Positions 27,732 to 31,080 of a DNA stretch of 64,000 bases are shown here, in pieces. The notes beneath the pieces are model-generated. The model searched no databases. It saw only the letters and a program-made list of their open reading frames with translations, and was not told the DNA's origin. Positions within the stretch are counted from its first letter, which is position 1. Every line of letters begins with the position of its first letter. Origin of the DNA: Prevotella sp. (GTDB taxonomy: Bacteria; Bacteroidota; Bacteroidia; Bacteroidales; Bacteroidaceae); NCBI GenBank assembly GCA_017413085.1, contig JAFPVC010000062.1, forward strand, positions 38,698 to 102,697, in the 5' to 3' direction. Made by a program: the position numbers and the translations under genes.

Positions 27732-29315
27732 TTATTCGCCTATCACCCAATTCTCTATCGTGCGGTCGGCGGCATTCATCTTTACTCCTACCTTTACCAC
27801 ATTGCGGCCGTCCGTTTCGTATGCCAGGGCATAGTCTTTCTCGTCAATCTGTTTCAAGGCCTGCTCCGCCGTGCCTTCCGTCTTCAGTTCAAACACGTAT
27901 GTGGTGTCTGGCATTAACACCACCATGTCTATCCTGCCGCCACGACACTTCACTTGGGTGCGCACATACACATTCAGCATTGAGAATATCAGATACATTG
28001 TGTATTCATAGAATCCCTCTGCCGTCGCTGCATCCTGTAACTTCTTCTTGAACCCTTCCACGTATGGCACACCTGCCAGATAGACCTGCATCTCACGCAT
28101 GGCGAGGTCTATATCATTCTGCTGCAGGGCGCGCCAGAACTTCAGCGCGAAGCCTGTCTGTACATCATAATTCTTCAAGCCCGTATATGACGGCAACAGC
28201 CCCTTCGCGTAGCCTATGCGCACTTCCTGATTGGGAATGGACAACTGATAAACATCTCCATACTTATCATAGTCCTTTATCGTAAGATATCCACTCTGAT
28301 ACAGCAACGGCAAGGCATCCTGCATATTCTCCGTCGGTTGGTCGAAAGCATCGGAAGGCACTTCCAACTTATCCAACGACATGATGTCGGTGCCGAAACG
28401 TTGCATCTGCTGTATCAGGAACGTCGGCGTACCTGTGGAAAACCAGTAGTTGTCCAACCGGGCATCCATGAAAGCATTCAACAAACTAAACGGATTGTAT
28501 ATATCCTCCGACTCCGCCGCAAAATGATAGCCGTCATAGCGTTCCTTTATCTTTTGAAACATCTCCTCGTCTGACACCCTGTAGTATTCTGCCATTGGAG
28601 CGATATCATCCTTGAATGTGTCCCTCACCTCCTGCTCAGTAATGCCACAGATGGCAGAGAAAGCAGGATTCAACGTAACGTTCTTTATGTTGTTTAGTGT
28701 AGAGAATATACTCAGTTGCGAGAACTTTGTTATGCCAGTGATAAAACAGAATTTAATTATTCTTTCATTAGCCTTGAGCGGTTGGTAGAACTCTTGCATT
28801 ATCTGCCTGTATTCATCCAGCCGGTGGTCATCTGTCAGCACATCAAGCAGTGGTGCGTCATATTCATCTATTATCACTGCCACCTGCTTGCCTGTCAGCT
28901 CATAGGCACGTTGCATCACAATCTCAAAGGCGCTACCAGGAGTCAACATCTCCTCTTCTACGCCATATTCTTTCAGGTAAGGACGTATTATATACCATAG
29001 ACGAGCTCGTAATTCCTCTGGCGTCCACTGATTCTTGGCAGTACTCAAGTCCAAACGAATCACAGGATAACTGTCCCACTCTTTCTCCAAATCCATTATC
29101 TTCAGCCCCTTGAAGAGTTCACGTTCTCCCTTGAAGTATGATTCCAAGGTTGACGTCAGCAGCGACTTTCCAAACCTACGTGGGCGGCTGAGGAAAGCAA
29201 AAGATGAATAGTGTGCTAGTTCCCACACCAAATCAGTCTTATCAATATATACGTATCCCTCACGTATTATGCGTGAAAACGTCTGTATTCCTACAGGATA
29301 TCTATTTCTTGCCAT
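27732..29315 (-). CDS. AAA-ATPase-like protein with C-terminal PD-(D/E)XK nuclease domain
   Basis: The 527-residue protein belongs to a family abundant in Bacteroidetes and Clostridia that joins an AAA-ATPase-like domain (PF09820) to a PD-(D/E)XK domain (PF08011). Visible are GYVYIDKTDLVWELA, the phosphate loop RPRRFGKSLLTSTLESYF at about 44-61, VAVIIDEYDAPLLDVL as Walker B, and FCFITGITKFSQLSIFSTLN. Near the C-terminus GGRIDMVVLMPDTTYVFELK shows the D and E-x-K nuclease residues. The role is unknown; a mobile or defence role has been suggested for the family. Length is normal. It follows the aminotransferase gene by 34 bp. Confidence 0.88.
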   Translation of the reverse strand: MARNRYPVGIQTFSRIIREGYVYIDKTDLVWELAHYSSFAFLSRPRRFGKSLLTSTLESYFKGERELFKGLKIMDLEKEWDSYPVIRLDLSTAKNQWTPEELRARLWYIIRPYLKEYGVEEEMLTPGSAFEIVMQRAYELTGKQVAVIIDEYDAPLLDVLTDDHRLDEYRQIMQEFYQPLKANERIIKFCFITGITKFSQLSIFSTLNNIKNVTLNPAFSAICGITEQEVRDTFKDDIAPMAEYYRVSDEEMFQKIKERYDGYHFAAESEDIYNPFSLLNAFMDARLDNYWFSTGTPTFLIQQMQRFGTDIMSLDKLEVPSDAFDQPTENMQDALPLLYQSGYLTIKDYDKYGDVYQLSIPNQEVRIGYAKGLLPSYTGLKNYDVQTGFALKFWRALQQNDIDLAMREMQVYLAGVPYVEGFKKKLQDAATAEGFYEYTMYLIFSMLNVYVRTQVKCRGGRIDMVVLMPDTTYVFELKTEGTAEQALKQIDEKDYALAYETDGRNVVKVGVKMNAADRTIENWVIGE

Positions 29316-29349: not shown

Positions 29350-31080
29350 CTACTCAATCGCAGCCTTGATACAGTCTACGATATATTTCACGTCATCATC
29401 TGTGACATACGGTCCAGTAGGCAAGCACATGCCTACTTTAAAGATAGCATCAGAAACTCCATTCACGTATGCAGGTGCATCCTTATAGCACGGTTGCCTG
29501 TGCATAGGCTTCCATACTGGACGAGCCTCAACCTGTGCCTTATCAAGAGCAACGCGTAATGCTTCCACATTATCATTTGGCTGACAGTCGGTGGTTGCAC
29601 TTTCGGCTACATGAATGACACCAGCAGCACCACCTACAGCTCCCTGCACAATGGTCTTATAGGCGTTCTCCTGACCTTTCACCTTCACCTCTGGTTCAAT
29701 AGTGATAGTGCTGAGCCAGTAGTTGCTGTCGTAAACGGAAGCCCCCTCTAAATCTCCCCCTTCAGGGGCGACTATGGGTTGCGAGTGAACGGTAATGCCC
29801 GGTACGTCAGCCAACAGCTCTTCATACATCTTTTGCACATGCTTATGGTGAGCCAGATGGTCATTCAACACAGTCATCTGACCGCGGCCAATTCCAGCGC
29901 AGATATTACTCATACGATAGTTGTACCCTATCTTCTCATGCTGATAGTATGGATAGCTCTCACGATATTGCGTGGCATACATCATTATTTCACGCCATTG
30001 GTCATTAGCCCCCTCTAAATCTCCCCTTTCAGGGTGAGACCTGCTTGGCAGGACGTTACAGAAATTTGAAATTCTTTGTAAGACGCCATCAATATCTCCA
30101 AGCACCTCCTCGTTCTTAAACCTAATCTCAATATATCCTAGTTTAGATAAAACTTTTGTGCGTTCTGCATCTGACTTCATCTGTGGAGGATAATTGTGAC
30201 AACCACCATCAATTTCTATGACTAATCCTTTATCCACGCAGAAGAAATCAACTATGAAATCGCCAATGATGTGCTGTTGGCGGAATTTTTCTCCAATGCC
30301 CTTACCTTTGAGGGCCTCCCAAAGTACCGCCTCTGCCTCGGTAGGTTTCTTTCTATTATTCTCAGCATATTCCTTCAGCAAACCATATATCATTGGATCT
30401 GCGGTGTAGACACTCCCATTCCCTTCAGGAGAGGGGTTAGGGGTGAGGCTTCCATTGCATATAAGTGCACCACCACCGCTGGTGGTAATCATCTTATTAC
30501 CGTTAAAGGACAGTGCTCCATACTTACCAAATGTGCCCAATACCTGACCGTTATAGCGTGACCCCATACCCTCGGCAGCATCTTCCACTACGGGAATGTC
30601 ATACTTATTGGCAACAGCCATAATCCTGTCTGCCTTATACGGCATACCGTAAAGAGCCACCGGCACGATAGCCTTGGGTTTCTTGCCTGTCTTGGCAATG
30701 CGGTCTTTGATAGCCTCTTCCAACAGGTCTGGGTCTATATTCCATGTGTCTGGTTCAGAATCCACCAGCACAGGTGTCGCACCAAGATAAACTACGGGGT
30801 GTGTCGATGCACAGAATGTAAAACTCTGCACAATTACTTCATCACCAGGCCCTACGCCGCAGGCCAACAGTCCCAAATGAACCGCAGCAGTACCTGCTGA
30901 CAATGCAACTACCCTCTTGTTCTGACCGACGAATTCTTCCAAATCTTTCTCAAATCCATCCACATTCGGTCCAAGGGGTACTACCCAATTTGTATCAAAA
31001 GCTTCCTTGATATACTTCTGCTCCAATCCTTCATCGCTCATGTGAGCGAGGCAAAGATATATTCGCTTACGTTCAGACAT
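29350..31080 (-). CDS. DegT/DnrJ/EryC1-family aminotransferase with an inserted DUF559 domain
   Basis: The outer parts form a PLP-dependent sugar aminotransferase. ALSAGTAAVHLGLLACGVGPG, VVEDAAEGMGSRYNGQVLG and SFNGNKMITTSGGG carry the PLP-binding Lys at about 196, and YNYRMSNICAGIGRGQM, RPVWKPMHRQPCY and GMCLPTGPYVTDDDV complete the fold. It would make an amino sugar for the surface polysaccharide. Residues 210-357 are foreign: LTPNPSPEG, then a DUF559 endonuclease-like domain (TEAEAVLWEALKGKG, FIVDFFCVDKGLVIEIDGG), then SHPERGDLEGA. The insert is in frame and lies right after the PLP Lys loop. A second short repeat gives APEGGDLEGA at 438-447. The protein is 576 residues against about 400 for the family. 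Whether it is still active is not known. Confidence 0.88.
   Translation of the reverse strand: MSERKRIYLCLAHMSDEGLEQKYIKEAFDTNWVVPLGPNVDGFEKDLEEFVGQNKRVVALSAGTAAVHLGLLACGVGPGDEVIVQSFTFCASTHPVVYLGATPVLVDSEPDTWNIDPDLLEEAIKDRIAKTGKKPKAIVPVALYGMPYKADRIMAVANKYDIPVVEDAAEGMGSRYNGQVLGTFGKYGALSFNGNKMITTSGGGALICNGSLTPNPSPEGNGSVYTADPMIYGLLKEYAENNRKKPTEAEAVLWEALKGKGIGEKFRQQHIIGDFIVDFFCVDKGLVIEIDGGCHNYPPQMKSDAERTKVLSKLGYIEIRFKNEEVLGDIDGVLQRISNFCNVLPSRSHPERGDLEGANDQWREIMMYATQYRESYPYYQHEKIGYNYRMSNICAGIGRGQMTVLNDHLAHHKHVQKMYEELLADVPGITVHSQPIVAPEGGDLEGASVYDSNYWLSTITIEPEVKVKGQENAYKTIVQGAVGGAAGVIHVAESATTDCQPNDNVEALRVALDKAQVEARPVWKPMHRQPCYKDAPAYVNGVSDAIFKVGMCLPTGPYVTDDDVKYIVDCIKAAIE
29741..29770 (-). repeat. Short GC-rich element without DUF559, in frame in the aminotransferase
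   Basis: The plus-strand text gccccctctaaatctccccc followed by ttcaggggc matches the end of the DUF559 insert at 30008-30034. It is read as APEGGDLEGA in the protein, in a loop between strands. Confidence 0.75.
30008..30448 (-). mobile_element. DUF559 insertion cassette inside the aminotransferase gene
   Basis: The segment is bounded by GC-rich ends, gccccctctaaatctccccttt at one side (30008-30034) and cccttcaggagaggggttag at the other (30421-30448). It is 441 bp, exactly 147 codons, so the host frame is kept. It codes for a DUF559 domain, related to very-short-patch-repair and PD-(D/E)XK endonucleases. DUF559 genes with the same kind of GC-rich flanks occur alone in many Bacteroidetes. Here it is fused within a host gene, like an intein without splicing motifs. 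Confidence 0.7.

Follow-up and report, generated by a model that had tools for sequence, protein, structure and literature searches.

An in-frame DUF559 nuclease cassette with REP-like palindromic ends in a DegT aminotransferase gene of Prevotella

Insertion sequences have one enzyme gene flanked by terminal inverted repeats and are found at multiple genomic sites. In REPIN/RAYT systems (TnpA-REP, Y1/HUH), inverted REP pairs occur in many copies per genome and are associated with a single nuclease gene, which these same repeats flank. Rickettsia palindromic elements (RPE) and intragenic GTAG/CGTC REPs are described as short palindromes, single or dimeric, that lie in unrelated protein genes (tRNA synthetase genes among them) and add 20–30 (up to 82) residues (PMC3733652, PMC10969869). 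Homing endonucleases of the EDxHD type (I-Bth0305I) are similarly described as spreading in an allele-specific manner between lineages, into a fixed site in conserved target genes (PMC3943268). Here we analyse a DegT gene located in a 64,000-nucleotide stretch of Prevotella DNA (the window), in which an earlier note had reported an in-frame DUF559 insertion. The features of this locus are as follows:

29350..31080, minus strand: DegT/DnrJ/EryC1 aminotransferase (PglE-like) frame with DUF559 insert, 576 aa (open reading frame and Pfam)
30451..31080, minus strand: host N-terminal part, through the PLP-lysine block SFNGNKMITTSGGGALIC-NG (alignment)
30007..30450, minus strand: inserted element AGCC...GGCT, 444 bp, frame kept, no net target duplication (junction comparison)
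30412..30450, minus strand: left REP-like end AGCCTCACCCCTAACCCCTCTCCTGAAGGGAATGGGAGT, translated SLTPNPSPEGNGS (repeat search and junctions)
30058..30375, minus strand: DUF559 nuclease domain (PF04480), residues 236–341 (Pfam)
30007..30034, minus strand: right REP-like end CCCTGAAAGGGGAGATTTAGAGGGGGCT, translated HPERGDLEGA, of another REP type than the left end
29350..30006, minus strand: host C-terminal part NDQWREIMMYATQYRE... (alignment)
29740..29769, minus strand: second REP-like insert in the DegT gene, without a gene, APEGGDLEGA

The DUF559 cassette resembles an insertion sequence in being one enzyme gene at many sites, in typical copies between inverted ends, but it holds DUF559 only, with no known transposase domain by Pfam and no target duplication at the DegT site; its repeats are palindromic and private to each element, and no recent movement to a new site was found. 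As with RPE, a palindrome lies in frame in a conserved gene and is absent from orthologues (the 29740–29769 insert is absent in L121; such inserts also occur in the DegT N-loop of L027 and L030 and in LeuRS loops). RPE and intragenic REPs, as described, code no enzyme, whereas the cassette holds a whole nuclease domain between its repeats, and these are CCCCTC/GAGGGG palindromes with AGCC-type tips in place of the GTAG/CGTC tags. In-frame palindromes alone are already known. The likeness to REPIN/RAYT is in the inverted pairs, the copy number and the repeat-bounded nuclease gene, but the enzyme here is DUF559/Vsr-like and not Y1, and Y1 does not predict these REPs in independent pairs. Homing endonucleases (PMC3943268) share with it conserved target genes and an allele-specific spread between lineages into a fixed site, which for the cassette is clear in some of the pairs compared; the cassette's nuclease also weakly matches the mobile-intron protein 3r3p. 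The DUF559 insert, by contrast, apparently belongs to no intron or intein, stays in the protein or between genes and is bounded by palindromes. In the literature searched, 14 papers contain 'DUF559' and no listed title deals with palindromes or in-frame insertion; a prior description elsewhere is possible.

In the 576-aa frame, DegT_DnrJ_EryC1 is matched by Pfam in three stretches (E 3.3e-82; nearest solved structures 1o61 and 4ztc) and DUF559 at residues 236–341 (E 3.8e-27), which confirms the insertion proposed earlier. The insert, bounded by AGCC/GGCT, corresponds to CDS 631–1074 (window 30007–30450). Its length does keep the frame, as had been claimed, but measures 444 bp (148 codons) and not 441 bp (147 codons). 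The site reads NG, 148 codons, NDQ, so that the five host codons are the same as in empty relatives; the host codon count is unchanged, and the DegT site thus carries no target duplication. No intein family was found in the Pfam scan (E up to 0.01), on which a splicing element is unlikely; the absence of splicing residues is as read in the earlier note.

The window DUF559 domain scores 94.7 bits against a curated cut-off of 20.6 and covers profile positions 4–108 of 109. Residues D50, E61, D63, H67 and D76 of the domain are kept and are conserved in 156–157 of 157 elements, while six DUF559 positions are conserved in 155–157 of the 157; we take the conserved acidic and His positions to be active-site-like residues. 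Its sequence matches 3hrl, an endonuclease-like protein (E 2.5e-16), and at a far weaker level 3r3p (E 0.17). The insert thus codes for a predicted nuclease of Vsr-like, PD-(D/E)XK type. The Caulobacter DUF559 protein VsrA is reported to be a predicted mismatch-repair endonuclease that is necessary for a DNA damage response (PMC12907096). An AlphaFold model of the 576-aa fusion was poor (mean pLDDT 57.4, pTM 0.36, 12 sequences in the alignment), with residues 168–231 and 348–404, which hold both junctions, at pLDDT <50, and we therefore make no claim on the fusion joint. Within this model the DUF559 region mostly reaches pLDDT 70–88, with elements in the order helix-helix-three strands-helix-strand-helix.

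Both parts of the fusion are conserved. In fusion pairs, pN is 0.12–0.15 against a pS of ~0.8 for the host part, and 0.10–0.14 at a pS of 0.77–0.87 for the DUF559 part. Only pN and pS are quoted, because synonymous sites are saturated in all pairs except L118–L119 and dN/dS was dropped. Of the two options in the earlier note, a host enzyme that tolerates the domain or a dead one, the first agrees with an open and conserved gene.

The GC-rich ends were compared across 157 unique DUF559 elements. The 200 bp upstream contain a GC-rich palindrome in 120 of them, the 200 bp downstream in 116 and both sides in 105, compared with 70/1190 control 200-bp windows. The up-flank and the reverse complement of the down-flank align with a median score of 53 within an element and 21 between random elements, and 56/157 elements lie above the 99th percentile of between-element scores; outside the genus this holds for only 5/29 loci. 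Judged from these repeats, the typical copy is REP-DUF559-REP, with ends inverted and matching within the element. The window copy is not among the 56: its left and right ends belong to different REP types and give no inverted-repeat alignment (score 14). Its left end does carry the same terminal motif as the terminal inverted repeats of free-standing DUF559 elements, which bears out the earlier note's observation that such ends are common to free-standing genes. A chance origin of the ends was ruled out by counts in the window, where the right-end 17-mer occurs twice (29743, 30010; 0.03 expected) and the left-end 28-mer once (0.00 expected). Genome G154 contains at least 18 inverted REP pairs, picked among the 36 listed of its 52 REP places; 17 have a spacing of 69–214 bp and the 18th is a DUF559 element. 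The gene-less REP pairs look like non-coding relatives of the DUF559 cassette, and a REP-nuclease-REP cassette akin to these pairs is the more fitting description of what moves.

Across Bacteroidota, DUF559 is found in frame inside unrelated hosts including LeuRS, MazG, ABC-F, CCA transferase, RecG, MetH and HsdR, and some of the in-frame host genes are essential. The host family was named by Pfam in 18/19 scanned fusions (L109 gave none); others were read by eye from translations (L064, L081, L087, L090, L094, L095, L097, L099, L113), as were the IspF and guanylate-kinase fusions, ValRS and IleRS among class I synthetases, and etfA and acd. Most DUF559 copies are intergenic. By hand count, 107 of the 150 DUF559 loci listed have open frames <180 aa and 43 larger ones, 10 of the 43 being classed as internal insertions, so selection seems to have left the in-frame cases as survivors. 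The earlier note had envisaged a selfish nuclease spreading into protein genes; the evidence for a mobile unit stands, but a specialisation in protein genes does not, given the 107/150 short frames. Cargo carriage by phages or plasmids was rejected, relatives of the window domain being present in only 2/50,697 phage and 38/72,556 plasmid records, all at <60% identity.

REP copies number a median of 21 in 163 DUF559-positive genomes and 1 in 136 negative ones (p = 4e-23). In 20 independent pairs, REP abundance and DUF559 changed the same way in ~10.3 and the opposite way in 0 (p ~0.002), and among 81 genomes of at least 97% completeness, 28/43 DUF559-positive but 4/38 negative ones have at least 10 REP copies. 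The association has exceptions, with 15/163 DUF559 genomes lacking the REP pattern and 23/136 negative ones having at least 10 copies. The control was a scrambled REP pattern, any copy of which occurs in 54/299 genomes; the reversed pattern is a poor control because the palindrome partly matches its own reverse. Y1 (PF01797) has no match in the window genome. Genomes with Y1 have a median of 9 REP copies versus 5 without (unadjusted p = 0.016), but independent pairs divide 3.8 vs 5.2, and RAYT/Y1 was rejected as the mobiliser. The match between genome REP type and DUF559 ends was dropped as proof of mobilisation, since p rises from 0.005 to 0.12 once an element's own ends are removed.

At the etfA-acd site, G025 is filled (608 bp) and G002 empty (2 bp), with flanks 98.7/97.8% identical. 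The G025 insert and the one in G123 share 98.8% identity, while flank identity between these two genomes is just 82–83%. Over the element there are 12 mismatches in 600 bp, against 116 and 134 in 700 bp of each flank, and the identity shifts where the element begins and ends. Here, as at the DegT site, one fixed position has both filled and empty alleles, and the insert has been replaced horizontally in recent time. In several of 6 pairs profiled, the insert clearly has a more recent common origin than the flanks. This is not the rule: of 179 same-site pairs, only 26 have an insert closer than the better-matching flank, so DUF559 units are mostly in vertical descent. A recent jump to a new site (defined by <400 bp of flank in common) was sought and not found; the closest copies at different sites share 77% identity, and movement to new sites is therefore rare or old. 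The recent events, on these comparisons, are confined to already used sites.

Such data could also arise if other machinery spreads REPs while a host-useful DUF559 protein (Vsr-like, in repair or defence) rides between two of them and is handed on through the usual routes of horizontal transfer and homologous recombination. The REP pattern reaches 277 copies per genome against 1–7 DUF559 genes, 153/179 same-site pairs look vertical, the weak Y1-REP link is present before allowing for phylogeny and DUF559, and a repair function would fit the prediction for Caulobacter VsrA in the cited account (PMC12907096). We regard this explanation as less likely than homing-like copying: the independent pairs tie REP abundance to DUF559 (~10:0) and not to Y1, and recombination tracts would be expected to extend into the flanks, whereas the G025-G123 identity drops at the element ends.

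The domain is not carried by all related DegT proteins. We sampled 29 loci of the genus (L019–L047), 28 of which cover the insertion site; 27 of these lack the insert and have exactly the five host codons (L030, which escaped the pattern search, was classed as empty from the alignment), while L021 has the five codons plus 18 bp, AGCCCCTCAGAGGAGGCT, an AGCC/GGCT remnant. Locus L025 starts at a contig end, at most 2 bases from the block after the site, and is therefore uninformative; a repeat at the site could have caused the contig break. The distribution is patchy, with DUF559 at the identical site in L118, L119 and L121, from three other assemblies, so the window insert is common to at least three relatives and hence not unique. 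At the 29740–29769 place, L118 and L119 have two REP-like peptides. Placing the inserted DegT rows in one clade is rejected (AU p = 0.008, lnL 29 lower), marginally so if L021 is included (p = 0.047). Their DUF559 domains do cluster (95/89 for three rows of 60; 77/72 for four rows of 18), and this lineage adjoins DUF559 domains hosted by an epimerase and by DegT at a second site (six rows in one clade, 99/95). In these alignments the host tree and the insert tree disagree. Between L118 and L119, a 485-bp tract without mismatch spans most of the insert, and the outer parts of the gene differ.

It is improbable that DUF559 joined DegT once, as a functional accessory domain, and was then inherited vertically with losses. 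A common site and DUF559 lineage in the window, L118, L119 and L121 would be expected from such an old fusion, as would low pN in both parts, and one gain with several precise losses could draw on the L021 remnant and the marginal p = 0.047. Against this, the inserted rows do not form a clade, 27/28 sampled orthologues are empty, the L118-L119 insert is near-identical in genes that differ outside it, and the same DUF559 lineage sits in an epimerase and a second DegT site. A dead gene or an assembly chimera, both considered in the earlier note, is hardly credible: the assembly of the window genome is 79% complete, in 62 contigs, and the DegT gene of a relative (L036) has an internal stop, but here 576 codons are open with low pN in host and insert, L118, L119 and L121 repeat the architecture in other assemblies, comparable cases occur in one-contig genomes, and one in-frame case, L108, lies on a 3.45-Mb contig.

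We consider it fairly probable, from sequence comparison, that the insert represents a chromosomal REP-bounded nuclease cassette that is copied in a homing-like manner, its in-frame intragenic copies being tolerated survivors. The cassette would comprise a single Vsr-like DUF559 gene between two inverted REP-like palindromes (AGCC...GGCT type ends). A role of the nuclease in cassette movement is inferred: it may cut alleles that still lack the cassette, or DNA with REPs, and repair of the break would, as in homing, copy the cassette in from a donor. Since no splicing removes the insert, intragenic insertions would persist only if their length keeps the frame and the loop accommodates a folded domain, and for this reason the window host enzyme is probably made as a fusion that still works.

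More tentatively, DUF559 may be the mobilising enzyme of a whole class of REPs and REP pairs in Bacteroidota, independent of RAYT/Y1: a nuclease-only element of 0.4–0.7 kb that homes without intron or intein, enters essential enzymes in frame and stays in them folded and unspliced, gene-less REP pairs being derivatives that depend on it. If true, this would supply a mobiliser for GC-rich REP palindromes in genomes without the known one, account for odd peptide inserts (SLTPNPSPxGxG and similar) in many Bacteroidota proteins, and mean that conserved enzymes, tRNA synthetases among them, can be invaded by a folded nuclease domain that is not spliced out. Annotated DUF559 'fusions' may be insertions rather than host functions, and the sites concerned offer natural insertion-tolerant positions to protein engineering.

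The DegT aminotransferase gene of the window (PglE-like) is interrupted directly behind SFNGNKMITTSGGGALIC-NG by 148 codons that contain a DUF559 domain (PF04480, a Vsr-like nuclease).

29350-31080, minus strand: DegT/DnrJ/EryC1 aminotransferase open frame, 576 residues
30007-30450, minus strand: DUF559 insert of 444 bp, starting with AGCC and ending with GGCT
29740-29769: second copy of the insert's right end, without a gene, in frame in the same DegT gene

The ends of the insert, one C-rich and one G-rich, are both REP-like and translate as SLTPNPSPEGNGS and HPERGDLEGA. The insert is atypical in that its two ends are of different REP types (end-matching score 14). Few amino-acid changes are seen in both the host and the nuclease part of the fusion (nonsynonymous differences, pN, ~0.10-0.15 at synonymous pS ~0.8). 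The closest solved structures are 1o61, which aligned in three pieces, and 4ztc; in the predicted structure the nuclease part is modelled at fair confidence, and the joints and the whole poorly. The gene directly downstream of DegT (27732-29315, minus strand) has an AAA-ATPase-like/PD-(D/E)XK (DUF1703-type) look, judged by eye from its translation. Only one further DUF559 gene turned up in the window genome (L001, G000:C4:146998-147309); it is free-standing, flanked by inverted REP-like palindromes and neighboured by a gene for what looks, by eye, like a Der/EngA-like GTPase.

The fusion protein was searched against 100 genus genomes including the window's own, 34 of which matched with an E value no higher than 1e-60, and at least 29 DegT loci besides the window's own (L019-L047, among the matches listed) were compared. 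With L025 set aside, as its contig begins just behind the site, 27 of the 28 listed loci spanning the site hold five host codons and nothing more; the remaining one, L021, holds five host codons plus AGCCCCTCAGAGGAGGCT, an 18-bp remnant bearing the element's tips. The empty site that the earlier note proposed to seek in related Prevotella thus exists, and its claim of an in-frame DUF559 insertion into DegT stands, at 148 codons. The same five host codons surround the window element, and there is therefore no net target duplication. A scan of named genomes (34 DUF559 loci) found exactly the same DegT site filled by DUF559 in L118, L119 and L121. The L025 contig (G040:C25) breaks exactly at the insertion site, as might happen at a repeat; a relative's DegT copy (L036, G063) has an internal TAG stop; and L021, L023, L027 and L030 carry short, nuclease-free, REP-coded in-frame peptides (e.g. 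SLTPNPSPKGEG) in the DegT N-terminal loop.

Host and insert histories were compared using a host tree of 33 rows, two from viral contigs. Accounting for the inserted rows on this tree takes three changes, two of them forced by the starred branches; the window and L121 lie within a starred eight-row set alongside six uninserted rows. In an 18-row tree a single clade of inserted rows was rejected (AU p = 0.008; p = 0.047 with L021 counted in), while a clade of L118, L119 and L121 with the window left out was not (p = 0.094). In trees of the DUF559 domains themselves, those of the DegT site cluster together with support of 95/89 (60 rows, with one member of an identical pair omitted) and of 77/72 (18 rows). 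Their nearest relatives lie in an epimerase (L105, L120) and at a second DegT site (L124), so that a single DUF559 lineage has settled at three host sites. L118 and L119 are free of mismatches over a 485-bp tract that opens 22 bp ahead of the left end and runs on into the right-hand repeats; outside it, divergence within the gene grows outwards, and past the gene the two no longer align.

Evidence of recent movement comes from 179 pairs of inserts at a shared site; in at least six of these pairs both members are one and the same place. In 153 of the 179 the insert does not exceed the better flank in similarity. Insert identity is far above that of the flanks in several pairs: G025-G123 (98.8% vs 81-83%), L169-L180 (98.8 vs 90-93), L052-L069 (98.5 vs 85-92), L133-L139 in ValRS (95.4 vs 84-86) and L118-L119 (100 vs 77-88). 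For G025-G123, mismatches fall from ~10 per 60 bp outside to 0-3 over the element, changing at the element's ends (12 in 600 bp of element; 116 and 134 in flanks of 700 bp each). The G025 element lies between etfA and an acyl-CoA dehydrogenase (acd) gene (named by eye). A query with this region found whole or partial matches in 172 of 199 genus genomes, and 20 loci among the matches listed were surveyed with 15 earlier loci, 9 of the 15 without one or both flanks. G002 has an empty site, with 2 bp in between and flanks 98.7/97.8% identical to those of G025. Other species are also empty (0-16 bp; G016, G184, G083, G162, G009, G107), G066 holds a REP pair of 108 bp, and DUF559 elements with other end types occur in G131, G145, G015, G116, G190, G022, G172, G286 and G216. 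About 15 bp beside the G025 left end agree with G123 and not G002; the right flank agrees with G002 at once. Judged from sequence, these junctions have a copy-repair pattern.

At L349 (G026), L201 (G164) and L352 (G045) the etfA-acd site is filled by a different unit of 484-574 bp with a four-helix-bundle gene, 23S rRNA intervening-sequence-like (named by eye), flanked by AACTTCTTTAACTTC repeats in L349 and L201; it may represent another family of one-gene cassettes with repeat borders. Three further species, at L340 (G043), L348 (G054) and L341 (G074), have small open frames of 51-67 aa there.

The earlier note had also proposed a search for GC-rich ends around other DUF559 genes, and these proved widespread. 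We compiled 157 unique elements, a non-random set of all large open frames listed, then small ones in list order, and loci from the named-genome scan. GC-rich palindromes within 200 bp flank 105 of the 157 on both sides (upstream 120, downstream 116), compared to 70 of 1190 control windows. The up-flank, matched to the reverse-complemented down-flank, scores a median of 53 when both belong to one element (23 in direct orientation) and 21 when they are taken from random elements; 56 of 157 exceed the 99th percentile. Typical elements have the end form AAGCC(T/C)C(A/T)CCCCC-NN-CCCCTC(T/C)CC-loop-GG(A/G)GAGGGGAGT ... inverted copy ... GGCTT, with loops often alike inside one element and unlike from element to element. 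Gene-less pairs of such ends are common: in G154, 36 of 52 REP places form 18 inverted pairs (picked by hand), of which 17 are spaced 69-214 bp and the remaining one, at 562 bp, is a DUF559 element. The window genome has one gene-less pair at contig ends (L010-L015; C45 and C46), where near-identical inverted REP pairs occur; this suggests that REP-type repeats break its assembly. Among 29 loci from a phylum search end-matching is weaker (median 30 vs 19; 5 above the 99th percentile). DUF559 genes also lie near C-rich repeats in Thiorhodococcus (L147) and a Syntrophobacteraceae assembly (L148); the two L148 ends pair as inverted repeats with a score of 66, which suggests that the arrangement may extend beyond Bacteroidota.

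PF04480 is present in 163 of 299 genus genomes and 63 of 148 drawn from the phylum. At least 150 DUF559 places were counted by hand among the matches listed, 43 with open frames of at least 180 aa. Classed from translations, these are 10 internal insertions, 26 N-terminal fusions (11 IspF, 8 guanylate kinase, 4 RNase H, 3 others), 2 C-terminal fusions and 5 unassigned read-throughs. Pfam named the host family in 18 of 19 scanned fusions (none for L109): ABC-F, CCA/poly(A) polymerase, epimerase, DegT (two), LeuRS (three), two other class I tRNA synthetases (ValRS and IleRS by eye), MazG, acetyl-CoA synthetase, RecG, methylmalonyl-CoA mutase, HsdR, MetH, AAA helicase and an epimerase with a polysaccharide-synthesis C-terminal domain. 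Host matches flank DUF559 on both sides or in two stretches in 15 of the 19, lie only behind it in L083 and L089, and only before it in L105. DUF559 occupies the LeuRS editing-domain loop (by eye) in Flavobacteriaceae (L127, L128, L129, L134) and in L136 and G088; among 82 genus LeuRS the same loops also carry nuclease-free REP-coded peptides (e.g. G074, G015).

Copies of the REP-end pattern (2 mismatches) were counted across the 299 genus genomes. The median was 21 in the 163 DUF559-bearing genomes vs 1 in the 136 without (p = 3.8e-23), with at least 10 copies in 108/163 vs 23/136 and zero in 15 of the 163. A composition-matched scrambled pattern occurred in 54 of the 299, almost always at 0-7 copies (maximum 21). 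The association persists in 81 genomes at least 97% complete. A LeuRS tree covering 81 genomes yielded 20 independent pairs differing in DUF559; REPs follow DUF559 in ~10.3 of them, go opposite in 0 and are equal in the rest (p ~0.002). The Y1 (RAYT-type, PF01797) transposase, present in 122 of the 299, is weakly linked to REP number when unadjusted (median 9 vs 5, p = 0.016); it has no effect in DUF559-free genomes (1 vs 1), little in DUF559 genomes (19 and 27.5), and goes the same way in 3.8 independent pairs vs 5.2 the other way. Against the REP-DUF559 tie counts the REP-type test, in which 3 genomes with both types were set aside: genome REP type matched the DUF559 end type with element ends counted (p = 0.005, 15 genomes), and the match was no longer significant once the element's own ends were removed (p = 0.12, 12 genomes, one without counts).

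These comparisons establish the nature of the unit, its positions and its precise and recent gain. Six nuclease positions are kept in 155-157 of the 157 copies, and the domain resembles 3hrl and, weakly, 3r3p, a mobile-intron protein; in Caulobacter, a DUF559 relative reportedly triggers a damage response upon methylation loss (PMC12907096). In the probable mechanism, the nuclease would cut either a target allele or REP DNA, and the break, when mended from a donor, would take up a copy of the cassette; folding of its palindromic ends on single strands may help to guide this copying. In needed genes only frame-keeping insertions in permissive loops would stay visible, because the cassette seems not to splice.

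REP pairs with Y1 enzymes are known. In-frame palindromes are described in Rickettsia and several other bacteria (PMC3733652; PMC10969869). Homing endonucleases, too, are a known kind (PMC3943268). In the literature searched, no description was found of a DUF559/Vsr-like nuclease with REP borders or in-frame insertion. The REP-bounded in-frame DUF559 cassette is therefore judged a variant that combines features of all three; should its nuclease turn out to mobilise REPs, it would count as more than a variant.
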